This document shows, one piece after another, positions 7,939 to 29,433 of a DNA stretch of 64,000 nt; the stretch's first letter is position 1; every line of letters starts with the position of its first letter. The stretch covers positions 3,142,492 to 3,206,491 of the forward strand of contig WLWX01000001.1 in the NCBI GenBank assembly GCA_012103375.1, written 5' to 3'. A program made the position numbers and the translations under genes. Origin of the DNA: Paracoccaceae bacterium. GTDB lineage: Bacteria > Pseudomonadota > Alphaproteobacteria > Rhodobacterales > Rhodobacteraceae. Under the pieces are notes generated by a model. The model was not told where the DNA came from and ran no database searches. It was given only the letters and a program-made list of their open reading frames with translations.

Positions 7939-9532
7939 TCACGTTGGCACTGTTGCTGGCACCAACTTCGCCAGTTTCCGGAGGTTTTGAGCTGTTGCTG
8001 CGAGTTGGAACTGTTCGGTTGCGCCTTTGGGTCCTCGAAGCCGCATCATCTGCACGCCGATGTATCGTTTCAGGTGGGCAAAGAGCATTTCAACCTTCCG
8101 CCTTTGGATGAACGACGTCATGTAGATTGTGTTGAAAAACTCCGAAATCAGAGCGTCGCGGATTTCTTGCGAAAACCTATGAAGCGAAATAGTCGGAAAG
8201 CTTTGACCACGAGACAGCGCATGGCTGCGCGTGAGCGCATGTAGGCGATTTGGGCCGACCCCCGCGCCAAAAATTTAGGATCGGGCTGCATGGAAAGAAA
8301 AATCATCGTTCAGGCCCTAAAACGGAGTTTTTCAACACAATCATGTAGGCATCTGTTTTTCGGATATCGCGAGCGACGTCTCGGGCGGCTTCGTGAACGG
8401 ACCGCATAAGGCGTCTGCCGTCGTCCTTCGGACAGCATTGCGACTTCAGAGGGCATGCGTCGCAATCGTGCTTTGAGGCTCGGTATCTGATGAACCCGTC
8501 TTTGCTGCCATTGGGCTTTCGCGGTTTTGAGAAGTTCCGCCGATATGTTTGCAAGGCTTTGCCGGTCGGGCAAGTATAGCTGTCGGTCGCCGGGTCGTAG
8601 ACAAAGTCTTCGCGTGAGAATGTGCCGTCAGTTCGTTTTGACTTATCCCAGACCGGAATGTGGGGTTCGATTTGACGTTCGTCCACAAGCCAGCCCAACA
8701 TCTCGGCTGATCCGTAACCCGTATCACCCACAAGCTTGTCAGGTTTGATGCCAAACCGCTCATGTACACGATCGATCATCTCCCTTGCTGCCCGCGCCTC
8801 TGCAGGCCGGATCGGAGCCGTCGGCTCGACGTCCACGATGACTGCATTATCCAAATCGACCATATAGTTAGTGGAATAGGCAAAGTAGGCGGCTCCCCCG
8901 TCAGCCCCAGTCCAACGCGCTGCTGGATCAGCCGGTGAGATGTATTTGGGGACGACCTTGGTCGCAGCACCGAAGGCCACATCATCCAGCGTCTCGAGAT
9001 ATTCGTCGACGGCACGGGACGTCAGATCTGCTGGCAGTCCGTCTTTGCTTTCAACGCCGCGCGTCTGGTTTGCATTCGCGGGGATCAGACTGGCATCAAC
9101 ACCAAAGCTGTGGCCGCCAACCAGCCCCTCATCCATGCAGCGCTGCAAAACGACCTCGAACAAATGTCGGAACAAACCGCTCTCGCGGAAACGGCCATGC
9201 CGGTTCTTAGAGAATGTCGAATGGTCGGGCACTGGATCAGCCAAATCAAGCTTACAAAACCAACGATACGCCAGATTGACATGAACCTCTTCGCAAAGCC
9301 GTCGCTCGGAACGGATGCCCTGACAATAGCCCAACAACAGCATGCGGATCATCAGTTCAGGATCAATCGAAGGGCGGCCATTGGCACTGTAGTATGAAGC
9401 GAGCAAGGGGCGCACACCTGTCAGATCAAGGAAGCGATCAATTCCCCGGACGGGATGATCCTTCGGCACAAAACTCTCGATCGAGAACTCATAGAACAGC
9501 GCGCCTTGCGCAACTTGCCTTGGACCCATCAT
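7939..9532 (-). pseudogene. IS1182-family transposase, split by MITE copy 2
   Basis: The DDE transposase starts at 9532 (MMGPRQVAQGALFYEF) and runs to KTDAYM, where the element at 8125-8342 interrupts it. The C-terminal 60 residues (MTSFIQRRKVEMLFAHLKR to VPATVPT) resume beyond the insertion and end at 7939. The CxxC-containing insert typical of this family is present (CDACPLKSQC). Removing 218 bp plus the 5-bp ATGTA duplication rejoins the frame exactly. The resident copy cannot make a full-length enzyme. Confidence 0.9.
8125..8342 (-). mobile_element. 218-bp MITE, copy 2 (inside IS1182 transposase)
   Basis: Same element as at 3462 but in inverse orientation. The flanking target duplication is ATGTA. 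Its terminal repeat (GATTGTGTTGAAAAACTCC) resembles the ends of the IS it sits in (GATACTGTTGAAAAAGTCC). Confidence 0.9.
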
Positions 9533-9654
9533 CGCCGAACCCTCCACCCTCAAAACAAGTGAATCAGAGCGTGCGCGGCCAATCAACGGACTTTTTCAAC
9601 AGTATCTTCGCGGCCATACCATTGGGAACTGGGGGCGCATTAGCGAGTACTGCA

Positions 9655-19773: not shown

Positions 19774-20676
19774 ATGGCAGGCATCAATGGCAGGGCGACG
19801 CGGGATCTGGACGATCTGTTCTGTCGGCTGGCGGATCCCGTTGCTGCAACCGAAAAGGTGTCGGATGCCGATATTCCCGAGCTGGCGAAGATGGCGTCAT
19901 CGCATAATGTTTCGACGATCCTGTATCGAAAGATAGGCGGTGCGCGTCTGGCAGCGCTGGCACCCGAGTTGGTGGCCGAGGTCGAAGGGCTGACGGCCAT
20001 GACGCTGCGCCTGGAATCGCTGCTTCCGGGATTGCGCGCTGCCTTTTCCAGCCGCGGGGTTGACCCGATAATCGTCAAAGGACCGGTCTTTGCCGAACGC
20101 CTTTATCCCGACCCGGCTGATCGCCCTTTCACCGACATTGATATTGTAGCCAGCCCAGACGACTTTGATGCAATTGGCGAAATCCTGACCGATCTTGGTC
20201 TGTATCAGCATGTGAAGGATCGGTTCGACCGGTCCGAGGCCAATCAGGAACAGAAATGGATCAGCGATGCAGACCCAAATCTTCTGATCGAGTTGCATGG
20301 CGATCTGGTTCATTATCCGGGCCTGCGCCGACGGGTGCGGCTTGGTCATGGCGAACTGATGTCGCTTGGGCCCGGGTCTGCGACGGCCCTGTTTCTGACG
20401 GCAGTGGCGCATGGGGCGCTTGGGCATAAATTTCACACTCAGCGCCTGCGCTGGCAGGCTGGCTGGATTCGGGAAATCGGATCGTTGCGGCGGTGTTTCC
20501 TGCACCGACGCGGCGCCGCGTCCAACGCTCCCTTAGGTACGACCGGCCAGGATCAATCTGGTCCACTGCCGGTATCCTCAGGCGGAATGCGCCAGATGCC
20601 GAGGTTCACTTTGTCCCGGTCCCCGGGCACGAGGGCGCGACTACGAACTTGCTGGAAAGGCTTAAGCCGGATCTGA
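19774..20676 (+). pseudogene. Nucleotidyltransferase-fold protein (NTP_transf_5-like), C-terminally truncated
   Basis: From ATG 19774 the protein reads as a family-5 nucleotidyltransferase. It has a helical N-terminus, then VDPIIVKGPVFAERLYPD and the active-site strand RPFTDIDIVASPDDF, with LLIELHGDLVHYP further on. Homology-like sequence ends near HGALGHKFH (about 20,435). Beyond that the same frame runs to 20676 through sequence that encodes a formyltransferase in another frame. The last third is therefore missing. Relatives occur next to PqqD/B2/HprK-type genes in RiPP loci, as here. The stub may be stable but is probably inactive. Confidence 0.65.
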
Positions 20677-21365
20677 TCATTTCTTCGATCTGGATGCGGA
20701 AGTTTCCGGCCAGCCATCTTTCACTGGCGCGCCTTGGTGGCGTCAATATTCACCCGGCACTGCTGCCGCTGTATCGCGGTCCGGACCCGATCAACGGCAT
20801 GATCATGGCTGGCGATATCGAAAAAGCCGGGGGTGCCACGCTGCACCTGATGAGCGAGGTTTTCGATGATGGCCCGATCATCGCAAAGATTCCGCTGCCG
20901 CTGCCGTTGTGGCGTGACCAGCCGACGATGCGGGTGGCGATGGGCAGCGCGATGTATCAACTGGTTCGCGATGATCTTTCCGGTTGGCTGTCAGGGGCAG
21001 TGACGCCGCACCACCAGCCGCCTGGCCATTGGCACAGCAAACACGACACCCTGACTGATCTGAGGTCCGATTGGCCCGCCGAGCGGTTGTTGGCAATCTC
21101 TCGCCTGTTGCTGGCCGGTTCTCGTCGGCGTCGGACGCTGAAGACACCGACGGGCGAATTCGCGCTTCCGCAGATCCTGCGGCGCATGGGCCCGCCGACC
21201 GGCGCCACTGCAAACCGGCTGAGGTTTGATTGCGCCGATGCGCGGATTGAGGCGACCGGGCGCAATTTGGCCGCCATCGCGCTTCAGCAGCACCGCAACA
21301 AATTGGCGCTTAGGCGCAGTGATCCGTTGACCGGGCTGCGATCCATCCAAGCCGGATCAGATTGA
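20430..21365 (+). pseudogene. Formyltransferase family protein, N-terminally truncated
   Basis: The frame opens after a TAA at 20427 and reads PALAGWLDSGNRIVAAVFP, consistent with the early part of a formyltransferase. It continues through KPDLIISSIWMRKFPASHL to the hallmark GGVNIHPALLPLYRGPDPI (family Asn-His region, followed by EVFDDGPIIAK). The natural start codon and first residues are gone; the first usable start is GTG 20493. It overlaps the stop of the convergent kinase gene by 9 bp. The acceptor is unknown, but the family uses 10-formyltetrahydrofolate. It is probably non-functional unless restarted internally. Confidence 0.7.
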
Positions 21366-22388
21366 GCGGTGCGGCGTCGCCTTGGCCAGCGTCGCACCAA
21401 ACACCTTTGCCGCGGATGCCAGGCCATCGGCGCCTTCGGGAACCAGCAACTCATAGGCCGGAACCGTTCGGATCAACTCGGTCAGGCGATCAAGTGCGGC
21501 AAGGTCGCGGGCTCCAAGCCCCTGCGCGCTGTGGCGCACATTGTCCGACACCAGCCGCGCCAATGCCTCGGCAGGCGGAATCTCACGCGCCTCGGCATCA
21601 GGGCCTGCCCCGCGCGCCAATGAGAATACCGCCCCGACGGGACGGCGGACATGGGGCGAGATTGGCATGTGATCGGCGAGCTTTGCGAGGGGCACCGAAC
21701 GTTCCTCACGTCTGGACCAATCCGCCAGACCATCAAGCCAGGGCAGCATCGCGACGGTCTTGCGGTGCACATTCGGATCGCGGGCCAACCCCCAGACGGA
21801 CAATCCGCCGCCGCCTTCGGTGCCTGACAGGACGGCGGCATCGTCGTTGGCCATCGCGTGCCCGGCGTGCGCCAATGACAGAGTTGTCGTCGTCTTGCCG
21901 GTGCCGCTGGGCGCGAAGATCAACCTATAGGTCTTGCCTGCAAGATCCGCCAGGCAGGCGGCATGAACCAGCGTTTGCCCGGTCAGCGCGATGGCTGAAT
22001 CCAGCACATGCATCGACATATTGAAGCTGTCGGACATGCGCGCCTGGTCGATCAGCACGATCTCGGCCGTTCCGGACGCCTCATCCACTTTTAGCGAGAC
22101 TAGGCCGGGTTGAATGAACCAGGTCACTGAACCGGCATTGTAAACGGCCACCGGTTTGCCATCTTCGCCAAAACCATCGTGCAGCAGATCTGCGCCCGCG
22201 TCCGGGGCCATCGGCGCACCGCGCCTAAGCGTCAGGGTCATCGCGACAGAAGCTTGCGTTGCCGGATCGTGCGGCTGCAACATGCCGTCATAGACGGCGG
22301 CGGCCCAATCGGGCGGACCACACACATCGAGTGTTGCGTTAACCAGATCAAATCGGGCACGGACAGGCAATCGTTCGGGGGCGGTCAT
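21357..22388 (-). CDS. HprK-related kinase A-like protein
   Basis: A 343-residue protein. An N-terminal unknown region leads to an HPr-kinase-like P-loop domain. Walker A is FAPSGTGKTTTTLSLA at about residue 170, after LVHAACLADLAGKTYRLI, and is followed by MANDDAAVL, matching the HprK fold. Kinases of this type lie in PqqD-containing cassettes and, in the paeninodin lasso peptide pathway, phosphorylate a peptide serine. The start overlaps the B2-like stop as ATGA, so this is the third gene of a minus-strand operon. The true substrate is unknown. Confidence 0.8.
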   Translation of the reverse strand: MTAPERLPVRARFDLVNATLDVCGPPDWAAAVYDGMLQPHDPATQASVAMTLTLRRGAPMAPDAGADLLHDGFGEDGKPVAVYNAGSVTWFIQPGLVSLKVDEASGTAEIVLIDQARMSDSFNMSMHVLDSAIALTGQTLVHAACLADLAGKTYRLIFAPSGTGKTTTTLSLAHAGHAMANDDAAVLSGTEGGGGLSVWGLARDPNVHRKTVAMLPWLDGLADWSRREERSVPLAKLADHMPISPHVRRPVGAVFSLARGAGPDAEAREIPPAEALARLVSDNVRHSAQGLGARDLAALDRLTELIRTVPAYELLVPEGADGLASAAKVFGATLAKATPHRSI

Positions 22389-22822
22389 GCAGGTGTGGGC
22401 CTCGGGAATTCCATCAGGTCGGTCATGCCGTCCTCACGGTCGCTGATCACCGGCGTGTCATTCAGACAGACCCAGCAATGGGCATCCAGCTTTTCAGTGG
22501 CAAGCGATTTTTCGACCAATGCGAATTTGAGCACCGGATCAAACCCTGCCTTGCGCAGGTACTTGAAACCCAGCAGCCCGCCACGCATGCAACGGCGATG
22601 CCGCATCAGGATCGGGTGTTTGACCGAACGGCGCACCCGGCGGACGATGAAGTCAGCGCTGACACCGTTCCAGCGCGGGTCAGGTGCAACATCGGCCCAA
22701 GCCAGCGCAACGCTCAGGTCCGTGTCGCCGATCTGATAGGGCAGTTTGCGCGCGTCCAGCCAGATGTCCCATCCCAACGCGATGCGGCGCGCGAAGGGCA
22801 ATTGACCGGATCCCTCAGGCAC
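22385..22822 (-). CDS. Lasso peptide biosynthesis B2-type protease (transglutaminase fold)
   Basis: About 145 residues from GTG 22822, which overlaps the PqqD stop by 8 bp; an ATG at 22861 would add 13 residues. The second half holds the B2 triad pattern: Cys in HRRCMRGGLLGFKYLR, His in DAHCWVCLND, and Asp in PVISDRED. In lasso peptide pathways this domain cuts the leader from a precursor delivered by the PqqD-like B1 domain. No lasso cyclase (asparagine synthetase-like) or obvious precursor gene is adjacent, so the peptide being cut is unknown. Confidence 0.75.
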   Translation of the reverse strand: MPEGSGQLPFARRIALGWDIWLDARKLPYQIGDTDLSVALAWADVAPDPRWNGVSADFIVRRVRRSVKHPILMRHRRCMRGGLLGFKYLRKAGFDPVLKFALVEKSLATEKLDAHCWVCLNDTPVISDREDGMTDLMEFPRPTPA

Positions 22823-23102
22823 CTGCGCCGACGACAACGCCGTCCTTGGCCAGCGGTGCAATCATCTCGATCAGATCCGGGATCAGGATGTCCGGCGTAA
22901 CCTCAAAATCATCCGTCATCCGGGTGGCGATGTCAGACAGGCTTGACGTTCCATCCAGTCGACCAAGAAAATCCATCGCCGTTTCGTTGCAGGTGTAAAT
23001 CTCGCCCGTTGTCGTCATCAGAACGACGCCCGTTTCGCCGACCGCGCGCATCGTGGCACTTGGCGAAAGGCTGAGAACCGAGGTTTCGGCGATCTGGGTC
23101 AT
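22815..23102 (-). CDS. PqqD-family peptide chaperone (RRE domain)
   Basis: A 95-residue protein with the PqqD winged-helix pattern: VVLMTTTGEIYTCNETAMDF, then LDGTSSLSDIATRMTDDF and a C-terminal helix. PqqD-like domains bind leader peptides of ribosomally made precursors and present them to modifying enzymes. It is first in the operon with B2 and the kinase, with AGGAGA before the ATG. It is divergent from the ligase gene across 69 bp, a shared promoter region. The arrangement fits the HPr-rel-A type of cassette. Confidence 0.75.
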   Translation of the reverse strand: MTQIAETSVLSLSPSATMRAVGETGVVLMTTTGEIYTCNETAMDFLGRLDGTSSLSDIATRMTDDFEVTPDILIPDLIEMIAPLAKDGVVVGAGA

Positions 23103-23171
23103 TGCGGGTCTCCTTGTCGGCGGGAACTTATCCAAGCCCCTTGCGTCTGGCCAGTCACAAACGCACCCAAT

Positions 23172-24620
23172 ATGGTTGGCGTTCAATCAAAGGTTTCGGA
23201 TCGGGATGCTGTGACGCTGAATACGGGAATTGAAGGCTTGCTGGGCCCCGGTTGCCGGCTGAGCGACCATCGCACCAGGCGCGCGCTGGATCGCGATGCG
23301 CTGTTGGCGCGGTCGCAAGCCTGTGCAGCCGGATTGCTGCAAAACGGCTGCCAGCGCGGTGATCGGGTTGTGATCGCAGTGGCTGATCCGCTGGCCGTGA
23401 TCGTCGCGCTGTTTGCCTGTTGGCGGGCCGGTTTGATTGCGGTGCTGGTCAATCCCGCGATTGTCGCGGCTGAGCGGCACCGCGTGACCGCGGCGACTGG
23501 CGCGGCCCTTTGGCTGGATACCGACGATGATCTGGGCGGCACTTCAGCCGCAACAATGGAGCCACTTGAACCGCACGATCCGGCGTTGATCCTGATGACA
23601 TCGGGAACCACCGGCGTGCCGAAGGGTATCACGCTGACGCTTAGCGCGCTGTTTGCGCGGGTTCACAGCAATGGCTCGCAAATCGGCGCGCCGACGTTAG
23701 CGCGTACATTGTCCGTCCTGCCTGTGTTTTTCGGGCACGGGCTGATCGGGACAATCATGACGCCACTGGCGGCGGGCGGTCATGTCATCTTGTGGCCGAC
23801 GCCCGCGCTTGGCGAAGTGGCGCAATTGGGCGACGTTCTGGATCAGACACAGGCCGGGTTCCTCAGCGCGGTTCCGAGTTTCTGGAGGATGGCACTGCGC
23901 CTGTCCCAGCCGCCCGGAACGGCGCTGAAACAGGTACACGTCGGTTCGGAAGTGCTGAGTGCGGAACTTTGGCAGGGTATCGCGGACTGGTCCGGAACGC
24001 GCAACGTTCTGAACATGTACGGGTTGACCAAAACCGCAAACTGGGTTGGCGGCGCGGGTCTGGATCAGGCGGCCGGGAAAACCGGCTTCGTTGGCCGCCC
24101 CTGGCTGGGGGATATGGCCGTTCTTGATGAGGCTGGAGTGATCCACGTATCCGGTACAGGAGAGGTTCTGTTGCGCAGCGACGCCTGCATGGCTGGCATC
24201 TGGGGCGATCCGAATGCGACCGAGGCCGCCTTTTTCGATGGCTGGCTTCGCACCTGTGACCTGGGGGAATTGGACGACGCGGGTCTGACGCTGAAAGGGC
24301 GGTTGAAGTCGCTGATCAACCGGGGCGGCGTCAAAATTCTGGCCGAAGAGATCGAGCAGATGCTGGAGCGCCACCCCGATGTGATCGAAGCTGCAGCCTT
24401 TGCCTTGCCCGATCCGGTGTCAGGCGAAGCGGTCGGCGCCGCCGTCGTCATGCGCAAGGATGCGGACCTGCCCGCGGATGCGCTGCGCGATTGGTGTCGC
24501 GGCGAAGTCCGGGCCGAGGCCGTTCCGTCACGGATTGCCATTCTCGATACGCTTGTGCGAAATGATCGTGGTAAACTCATGCGGGATGCGACGCGCGATC
24601 TGGTTCTGGACACCGGATAG
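23172..24620 (+). CDS. AMP-forming acyl-CoA/acyl-ACP ligase
   Basis: A 482-residue ANL-superfamily adenylating enzyme. Visible core motifs are the P-loop LILMTSGTTGVPKGITLT at about 140, the A5-like NMYGLTKTANW at about 280, TCDLGELDDAGLTLKGRLKSL (A7/A8) at about 360 and a C-terminal lysine in RNDRGKLMRD (A10). It would activate a carboxylate as acyl-adenylate and hand it to CoA or to the ACP encoded two genes downstream. The substrate is not predictable by eye. It heads an operon with GNAT and ACP, divergent from the PqqD cassette. Confidence 0.85.
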   Translation: MVGVQSKVSDRDAVTLNTGIEGLLGPGCRLSDHRTRRALDRDALLARSQACAAGLLQNGCQRGDRVVIAVADPLAVIVALFACWRAGLIAVLVNPAIVAAERHRVTAATGAALWLDTDDDLGGTSAATMEPLEPHDPALILMTSGTTGVPKGITLTLSALFARVHSNGSQIGAPTLARTLSVLPVFFGHGLIGTIMTPLAAGGHVILWPTPALGEVAQLGDVLDQTQAGFLSAVPSFWRMALRLSQPPGTALKQVHVGSEVLSAELWQGIADWSGTRNVLNMYGLTKTANWVGGAGLDQAAGKTGFVGRPWLGDMAVLDEAGVIHVSGTGEVLLRSDACMAGIWGDPNATEAAFFDGWLRTCDLGELDDAGLTLKGRLKSLINRGGVKILAEEIEQMLERHPDVIEAAAFALPDPVSGEAVGAAVVMRKDADLPADALRDWCRGEVRAEAVPSRIAILDTLVRNDRGKLMRDATRDLVLDTG

Positions 24621-24664
24621 TTGGGTCAGCGGCCCTGCTGGCTTCGAAAGCAACAGACTGACCG

Positions 24665-25249
24665 ATGAGCTGGATAAACAAACCCCGTGACCTGCACTTT
24701 GATCAGGCGCTGCAGACCGACAGGTTCGAGTTGCGCCCGCTCAGCCTGTGGCAGGCCTGGCGGCTTGGTGCAAACAACTGGCTGGACGATCCCGAACTGG
24801 CAAGCGCGATCACGGCGGCGCCTTTGCGGGGGTCGCAATGGCGATTGTTTCGGCGGATGGCAAAGCCAAACGGGCGAACGCGGTTCACATACGGGATATT
24901 CCCGCATGGCTCGGACCACGCGATCGGGGTCGAATCGGTGCAGCTGCGCAATTATCGGACTGCCCATCTGGCGGTCTTGATTCATAATCGTGACTGGTGG
25001 GGCAAAGGCGTGGTGGTCGAAGTGCGCGGACGCGTTATTCCTCATCTATTCGAAAGTGATCGTGTGGGGCGCATTCAGGGCCAGGTTGAGGGACGGAATT
25101 TCGCGTCGATCTTCAACTATCGCAAACTTGGTTTCGACCATGTCGGAACCTTCCACCAATGTATCTGGAGCACGGCTGAAGGCGCCCCGGCCGATCATCT
25201 GCTGTTCGAGATGATGGAAGACAATTGGCACAAGCGGGGCGCGGCATGA
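24665..25249 (+). CDS. GNAT family acyltransferase
   Basis: A 194-residue RimJ/RimL-like N-acyltransferase. The N-terminus reads TDRFELRPLSLWQAWRL. Middle strands give GVESVQLRNYRTAHLAV, and the acyl-CoA-binding loop lies around NRDWWGKGVVVEVRGRVIPHLF. The C-terminal motif B region reads GRIQGQVEGRNFASIFNYRKLGF, the usual NxxSxxxxxKxGF pattern. Its place between ligase and ACP genes suggests it transfers an acyl group from the carrier protein rather than from acetyl-CoA, but that is inference. It ends in an ATGA overlap with the ACP gene. Confidence 0.8.
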   Translation: MSWINKPRDLHFDQALQTDRFELRPLSLWQAWRLGANNWLDDPELASAITAAPLRGSQWRLFRRMAKPNGRTRFTYGIFPHGSDHAIGVESVQLRNYRTAHLAVLIHNRDWWGKGVVVEVRGRVIPHLFESDRVGRIQGQVEGRNFASIFNYRKLGFDHVGTFHQCIWSTAEGAPADHLLFEMMEDNWHKRGAA

Positions 25250-25461
25250 GCGTCGACGCCGCGCAAGCCCTGGTGGCCGGGGCGCTGGGCCGCGATGGTG
25301 TCGCGCCGACCGATGGAATTGCCACGCTGGCCGAGTGGGACAGCCTGGGCCATATGCACATCGTTCTGGCGATCGAGGCTGCGCGCGGGCAGCAGCTTTC
25401 GCCCGAACAGATCGTCTCGATCGGGACTGTGTCGGATGTGGCGGCCTGCCTTGATGAGTGA
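25246..25461 (+). CDS. Acyl carrier protein
   Basis: A 71-residue acidic helical protein carrying the phosphopantetheine attachment motif EWDSLGHMHIVLAIE, with the serine at about residue 35. It is shorter than housekeeping AcpP and has a different surface pattern, so it is a pathway-specific carrier. The start overlaps the GNAT stop by 4 bp and the gene ends 8 bp into the next small ORF. It is expected to be loaded by the upstream ligase. No phosphopantetheinyl transferase gene is nearby, so a cellular one must act on it. Confidence 0.85.
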   Translation: MSVDAAQALVAGALGRDGVAPTDGIATLAEWDSLGHMHIVLAIEAARGQQLSPEQIVSIGTVSDVAACLDE

Positions 25462-28759: not shown

Positions 28760-29433
28760 TTATTCGGCAGCCGATTTGAAACGGTCGCAGAGGACGTAAT
28801 CCCAGCCGGTTGAATAATGGCTGCGGGCGGCCTGCGCGGCTTGCGGGATTGCGTTCCAGCCATCGTGGATCAGCGTGACGCGGGTGCCGGTTCCGTCCGG
28901 GTCGAAATTGATGGTGAGGTATGTGACCTCATCCTCGGGGCGGTCCAATTGCCAGGTCATGGCGAAGGATTTGCCGGGCTGCCAGGTGACGACCTTGCCC
29001 CAGACAACTTCGGTGCCGTCATGTTTGGTCTCGGTCACGTTTCCGCCGACCTCTGGCGATATGCGCACGTCGCGGGCCACCTTGCCGTCGCCCGCGGACA
29101 GCGAATGCTTGTCGAGCGGCCACCAACTGGACATGCGGTCTGTGAACAGATCGAAGGCGCGATCTGGGCTCTGATTGTGTTGAAAAACTCCGTTTTAGGG
29201 CCTGAACGATGATTTTTCTTTCCATGCAGCCCGATCCTAAATTTTTGGCGCGGGGGTCGGCCCAAATCGCCTACATGCGCTCACGCGCAGCCATGCGCTG
29301 TCTCGTGGTCAAAGCTTTCCGACTATTTCGCTTCATAGGTTTTCGCAAGAAATCCGCGACGCTCTGATTTCGGAGTTTTTCAACACAATCGGCTGAGCGG
29401 GACGACGAGGGTTTTTTCAATCGGGGCGGTCAT
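28760..29433 (-). pseudogene. SRPBCC (AHSA1-like) protein interrupted by a MITE
   Basis: The gene begins at 29433, overlapping the ArsR stop as ATGA, and reads MTAPIEKTLVVPLS before the 218-bp element stops it at TGA. Beyond the element it resumes as PDRAFDLFTDRMSSWWPL and continues to YVLCDRFKSAAE at 28760, a START-like ligand-binding fold. ArsR-AHSA1 pairs are common; the AHSA1-type partner is often of unknown function. A downstream fragment from ATG 29134 could still be made but lacks the first strand and helix. Confidence 0.8.
29173..29390 (+). mobile_element. 218-bp MITE, copy 3
   Basis: Same orientation and sequence as copy 1. GGCT lies on both sides (with two extra bases, CT, between the left copy and the element), consistent with a target duplication within the SRPBCC gene. 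Confidence 0.9.

Follow-up and report, generated by a model that had tools for sequence, protein, structure and literature searches.

Do a ligase, an N-acyltransferase and a carrier protein encoded opposite a peptide-modifying cassette act on the peptide that this cassette handles? The question is raised by a locus within a 64,000-nucleotide stretch of alphaproteobacterial DNA (hereafter the window). A sequence-only reading had described the three genes, at 23172-25461, as an overlapping operon sharing a 69-bp region with the PqqD gene of the facing cassette. Coordinates and domain matches confirm the ligase, GNAT and ACP genes (the trio), and the shared region is exactly 69 bp long (Table 1). 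Overlap is limited to the GNAT and ACP genes, which share 4 bp (ATGA); the ligase and GNAT genes are 44 bp apart. With a probability of about 0.6, we consider the locus to be a cassette that matures small linear RiPPs, with an optional acylation module attached.

Table 1. Features of the locus, in window coordinates.
Feature	Position	Strand	Evidence
NTP_transf_5 nucleotidyltransferase (PsmN-like)	19774..20676	+	PF14907 4e-23; homology stops near 20438
Junction of 349-bp deletion relative to congener G001	20437..20438	+	blastn blocks
Formyltransferase-like gene, N-terminus missing	20493..21365	+	PF00551 4e-17; L016 comparison
HprK-like kinase, 343 aa	21357..22388	-	Alignment; weak Hpr_kinase_C and HprK_rel matches
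B2-like leader peptidase (Transglut_core3); start codon uncertain	22385..22861	-	PF13471, alignment
PqqD-family protein, discrete RRE (lasso B1-like), 95 aa	22815..23102	-	PF05402 3e-10, alignment
Divergent intergenic region PqqD/ligase, 69 bp	23103..23171	.	Sequence
AMP-forming ligase (ANL superfamily), 482 aa	23172..24620	+	PF00501 E 4e-47, PF13193 3e-14; relatives' alignment
GNAT N-acyltransferase, 194 aa, RimL/RimJ/SpeG-like fold	24665..25249	+	PF13302 4e-12, AlphaFold2, Foldseek
Acyl/peptidyl carrier protein, 71 aa, phosphopantetheine serine 33 in DSL	25246..25461	+	PF00550 5e-6

Alignments with relatives showed that Cys91 and His128 of the B2-like peptidase are invariant; this protein scored 32.9 bits against NF033537, just below the cut-off of 33. 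His142, Lys165, Asp182 and Asp183 of the HprK-like kinase are also invariant and are the His-Lys-Asp-Asp residues of lasso kinases. On the trio side, the DSL motif of the carrier protein is invariant across aligned relatives. The AlphaFold2 model of the GNAT (pLDDT 92.5) had as its nearest Foldseek matches RimL, RimJ, SpeG and a lasso-peptide acetyltransferase (PDB 9iy3, TM 0.66-0.68), enzymes whose targets are amines of peptides or small molecules. Since the ligase and the carrier protein share an operon with the GNAT, it is natural to propose that the ligase loads an acid onto the carrier protein and that the acyl group is then transferred to an amine. The Trp112-Gly113 pair of the GNAT is near-invariant and its canonical loop is lost only in part; the loop motif was therefore not used as an argument that ACP, and not CoA, is the donor. 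Such loop variants are found in CoA users too. A search of viral contigs for GNAT relatives found none, and no transporter was recognised for the locus.

Candidate substrates emerged when the short reading frames around the cassettes were compared all against all, which brought out peptides of roughly 27-40 residues. Enlarged with a profile, the family has 172 unique precursors, with a lasso-type leader (Y-17xxP-14xL-12) followed by a short core. Y-17 is present in 166 of the 172, P-14 in 158, L-6 in 146 and A-1 in 140; the leader consensus is KxYxKPxLxKxxxLxx[VI][TVA]A and its spacing is that of BsfA. The median core length is 10 residues, where the -1 site was set by a pattern rule and the core boundary may therefore be off by one if the leader has an insertion. 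In 97-100% of precursors a serine occurs among core positions 1-8, and 88 have it at core position 5 compared to 26 by shuffling. Tandem precursor copies are under purifying selection. Two arrays hold nine or ten precursor genes (L122:4446-6247 and L051:6319-7813), the second with an almost identical core (GANFSGKK) in every copy. When compared with curated families, no leader or core rose above a cut-off, and only the S74 domain of a fused precursor did.

No precursor was found inside the 64-kb window or beside the cassette of its congener (G001). The window genome (G000) as a whole encodes at least five: VKKPYAKPAVARRDSLSAITQ-TKSSGDR, one with core GGPSKKKV fused to an S74 domain, and three others with cores DKISIRRRIPT, IECSLKSCEK and CCTSKGCC. 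Occurrence of the family tracks that of the kinase. A six-frame whole-genome search detected precursors in 29 of 31 kinase-positive trio genomes and in 0 of 19 kinase-negative ones; the profile had been built from some of these first 50 genomes, excluding G000 and G001. A second genome set, chosen by kinase alone and likewise excluded from the profile, gave 10 of 11 kinase-positive versus 0 of 39 kinase-negative genomes with precursors.

In some loci the precursor core runs directly into a Peptidase_S74 (endosialidase chaperone) domain (L113:5372-5677, L117:5585-5911, L118:5779-6144, L064:11441-11842, L155:5357-5752, L181:162-501). The 7-11 residues that precede SDxRLK in these fusions correspond to the length of the free core. 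Self-cleavage of the S74 domain could give the core a defined C-terminus.

In the pathway that we propose, the PqqD protein (RRE) would recognise short precursors, made from genes at other sites in the genome, by the YxxP motif of their lasso-type leader. The HprK-like kinase would phosphorylate a core serine, as PadeK, BsfK and LppK do (PMC9266682, PMC10368454, PMC13381572), and NTP_transf_5 would elaborate the phosphoserine; PsmN, which it resembles, adds hexose to phosphoserine, or is required for that step (PMC9266682). The B2 peptidase would cleave after residue -1, mostly Ala, to release a core of about ten residues. For BsfA, B1 enhances phosphorylation as well as removal of the leader (PMC10368454). 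The ligase would adenylate a carboxylic acid to be loaded on the carrier protein, from which the RimL/SpeG-like GNAT would pass the acyl group to a peptide amine, at the new N-terminus or on a lysine. Phosphorylation, cleavage, the identity of the acyl group, its acceptor and the order of the steps are what we infer from the genes and their predicted products.

The acceptor could alternatively be the amine of a sugar that NTP_transf_5 puts on the phosphoserine, in which case the trio would modify the peptide indirectly. The hexose transfer that involves PsmN would fit such a route, and so would the cassette-free trios that, judged by eye, lie near PseC-like aminotransferase, NeuB/PseI-like and glycan-like genes (L083, L085, L093, L099). 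Core lysine is commoner in trio genomes (mean 0.68 vs 0.19 per genome, kinship ignored), which speaks for a peptide acceptor. Some trio genomes have no lysine in any core (L030, 16 cores), which favors a sugar. However, the trios linked to a cassette have no recurring amino-sugar gene, and the free peptide N-terminus is a simpler acceptor that is present on every core. We regard the sugar acceptor as unlikely, and keep it under consideration because of those cassette-free relatives amid amino-sugar and glycan-like genes. Acylation of the peptide itself, the preferred reading, was also the proposal of the sequence-only reading. The idea is plausible and, with 172 precursors, a substrate for it has been found; that the acyl group lands on the peptide is inferred from the company that the genes keep.

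How firmly the trio belongs to the cassette was judged from both sides. A ligase-alignment scan of genome contigs returned 372 relatives, the best 80 of which were kept and, together with the window, make 81 loci. The GNAT is present in 76 and the ACP in 73 of these, nearly all adjoining the ligase, and the ligase-GNAT-ACP order is retained in related genomes; the association of these genes exceeds chance, and the trio is thus a module in its own right. Its commonest other neighbours, not named in advance, were the HprK-like kinase and NTP_transf_5, followed by B2 and PqqD. Profile searches located PqqD, B2, kinase and NTP_transf_5 within about 8 kb of the trio in 22-23 of the 81 loci, and 31 of 50 trio genomes have the kinase somewhere in the genome. 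Trio and cassette are combined in four arrangements: divergent as in the window; fully co-directional; co-directional with NTP_transf_5 following the ACP gene; and trio plus NTP_transf_5 convergent with the kinase operon. Mapped on a ligase tree, cassette presence changes 4 times, versus 15.5 by shuffling, and is thus clustered, yet trios with and without cassette are interleaved.

As the 80 loci had been picked by similarity to the window ligase, a sample of genomes from one order was also taken. Among its 298 genomes, 13 have the kinase, 5 the trio ligase and 3 both, when 0.2 would be expected (p = 6e-4; dropping the genome that defined the order gives 0.009), and in these three the kinase and the trio always lie within a few kb of each other. 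Seen from the cassette, the link is weak: 10 of the 13 kinase-positive genomes are without the trio, which makes it an optional module of the cassette. Rare co-occurrence of the two operons, which would have refuted the sequence-only reading, was not what the trio side showed; starting from the cassette, both occur in only 3 of 13 genomes. Of 249 genomes in the window's own family, the window genome and its congener were the only two in which the kinase turned up. A class-wide kinase search of 385 genomes found only the window genome, and was insensitive because few candidates were scored per genome.

These numbers bear on whether the two operons are adjacent merely by shared mobility or genome position, the trio product being an unrelated acylated small molecule. 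The many genomes with a trio and no cassette would be expected in that case, as would the cassettes without trio in most of the order sample. It is harder to reconcile with four gene orders that retain both partners, including co-directional runs and NTP_transf_5 between or after the trio genes, or with the excess of genomes that have both in the order sample. Mere adjacency of this kind appears to us decidedly improbable, and a functional, if optional, association of trio and cassette is the reading that we retain.

Other neighbours of the trio are less regular. Clustering of neighbours across the 81 loci placed a formyltransferase near it in six, and an ABC transporter cluster in 10, mostly without cassette. 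In one kinase-positive genome of the order sample (G600, L157:4940-5953) the cassette is accompanied by a formyltransferase and not by the trio, a hint that the peptide may be tailored by formylation instead. By eye, genes related to the trio, or to its ligase alone, also occur amid amino-sugar, nonulosonic-acid and glycosyltransferase-like genes (L083, L085, L086, L088, L093, L099), and in G037 (L018 5407-15021) the trio is flanked by a TolC-like gene on one side and by type I secretion ABC transporter/adaptor genes on the other.

The nearest described kind of system is that of the linear polyphosphorylated peptides (LPP), said to be confined to Bacillota (Popov et al., 2026; PMC13381572). 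LPP clusters and the cassette have in common a discrete RRE, an HprK-like kinase, an NTP transferase, a YxxP leader, a core serine and the lack of a macrolactam cyclase. The combination of RRE, kinase and NTP transferase without cyclase that distinguishes LPP is thus found here, with the NTP transferase of the window truncated. There are also differences. LPP clusters use an SpI-like leader peptidase and an MsbA-like transporter, whereas the cassette has a B2 peptidase, and neighbour clustering found no SpI-like gene among the recurrent neighbours of the trio, B2 taking its place in cassettes. LPP precursors are longer than those found here, differ from them in core length and have a longer leader motif (YxxPxVLxHQxIxFETxxS), which our leader consensus does not match. 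Finally, acylation genes are not reported for LPP, in contrast to the ligase, GNAT and ACP of this locus.

The second comparison is with phosphorylated lasso peptides. Paeninodin, pseudomycoidin and Bsf clusters share with the cassette B1 (RRE), B2, a His-Lys-Asp-Asp kinase, a nucleotidyltransferase and the leader pattern Y-17xxP-14xL-12 with T-2 (PMC9266682, PMC10368454). The pairing of discrete RRE and B2 leader peptidase typical of lasso clusters is present as well (PF05402, PF13471, invariant Cys/His). In contrast to these lasso types, the cassette loci lack a lasso cyclase gene and G000 has only one 26-bit partial match to Asn_synthase (PF00733), no full lasso cyclase. Full Asn_synthase proteins are present in some cassette genomes, and about 13 of 35 have no full PF00733 match. 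The cores also depart from the lasso pattern, with Gly1 in 14% and 8% and an acidic residue at positions 7-9 in 17% and 8%. An ordinary lasso peptide with acyl decoration, closed by one of those Asn_synthase proteins as an unlinked cyclase, would account for the paeninodin/Bsf-type genes and leader and is nevertheless scarcely credible, and was set aside, given that a full match is missing from G000 as well as from a dozen or so further cassette genomes and that cores with a median of 10 residues have the wrong composition. For the same reasons the product is probably linear, which is the best reading of these genomes and cores.

Dlt and AlmEFG resemble the proposed acylation route, as in both a stand-alone carrier protein receives a small acid from an adenylating ligase and a transferase hands it on. 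Their transferases are not known to be GNATs, and the acid ends up on envelope polymers or lipid A. Acylation of a ribosomal peptide has been seen before, since selidamides (e.g., phaeornamide) are RiPPs acylated by a GNAT on an amine, that of Lys or Orn, one example being alphaproteobacterial (PMC9505594). Selidamides differ in having an NHLP-type precursor, a cluster with lanthionine synthetase and arginase, and an acyl group taken from primary metabolism; no dedicated ligase or carrier protein is listed for the phaeornamide cluster, unlike the trio. Lasso-peptide acetyltransferases (PDB 9iy3; albusnodin AlbT, PMC9266682) are likewise GNATs whose substrate is a peptide from a lasso-type pathway, but they perform CoA-dependent acetylation without ligase or carrier protein. 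We found no report, in open-licence PubMed Central papers, of a lasso-type RRE/B2/kinase cassette combined with a dedicated ligase and carrier protein. The novelty proposed for an acylated-peptide system would thus narrow to this union of ligase/carrier and cassette, GNAT-acylated RiPPs being already known.

The trio beside the cassette points to a new family of acylated, phosphorylated linear peptides. The more specific picture, of alphaproteobacterial, very short linear RiPPs with a phosphorylated and capped serine, dispersed or S74-fused precursors, and a ligase and carrier protein feeding an acylating GNAT, seems to us about evenly poised between right and wrong. If true, it would add Alphaproteobacteria to Bacillota as a source of linear phosphorylated peptides, put lasso RRE/B2/kinase machinery to work on tiny cores without a cyclase, and provide a ligase-carrier-GNAT route to an acylated ribosomal peptide. 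The 172 precursors are concrete substrates with which the functions of the PsmN-type nucleotidyltransferase and the kinase are directly testable.

The copy in the window appears to be partly degraded. Blastn blocks align window positions 19805-20438 with L016 7860-8493 and 20437-20896 with L016 8841-9300. Relative to G001, the resulting 349-bp deletion removes the end of NTP_transf_5 and the N-terminus of the formyltransferase and joins the two out of frame, so that both are truncated and the part of NTP_transf_5 beyond about 20438 is out of frame. This deletion may be a sequencing or assembly error. The ligase has two unusual substitutions, E287K in the YGxTE motif and G362C in the TGD motif, at positions that are otherwise near-invariant among relatives; neither replacement is present in any other of the 81 sequences. 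The Glu of YGxTE and the Gly of TGD are catalytically important in the ANL superfamily. Relatives retain TSGTTGxPKG, YGxTE, TGD and the terminal Lys, the last of which (Lys468) is also retained in the window copy. Judged from these damaged-looking ligase, NTP_transf_5 and formyltransferase genes, the window module is probably impaired, and the strain may no longer perform the acylation step. Decay, if real, is recent, because the cassette genes have a dN/dS of 0.04-0.19 wherever this was computable. A transposase-like gene at window positions 8303-9586 and a short frame at about 28817-29212 have the same ending (VLKNSVLGPER), which suggests that insertion-sequence remnants lie near the locus.
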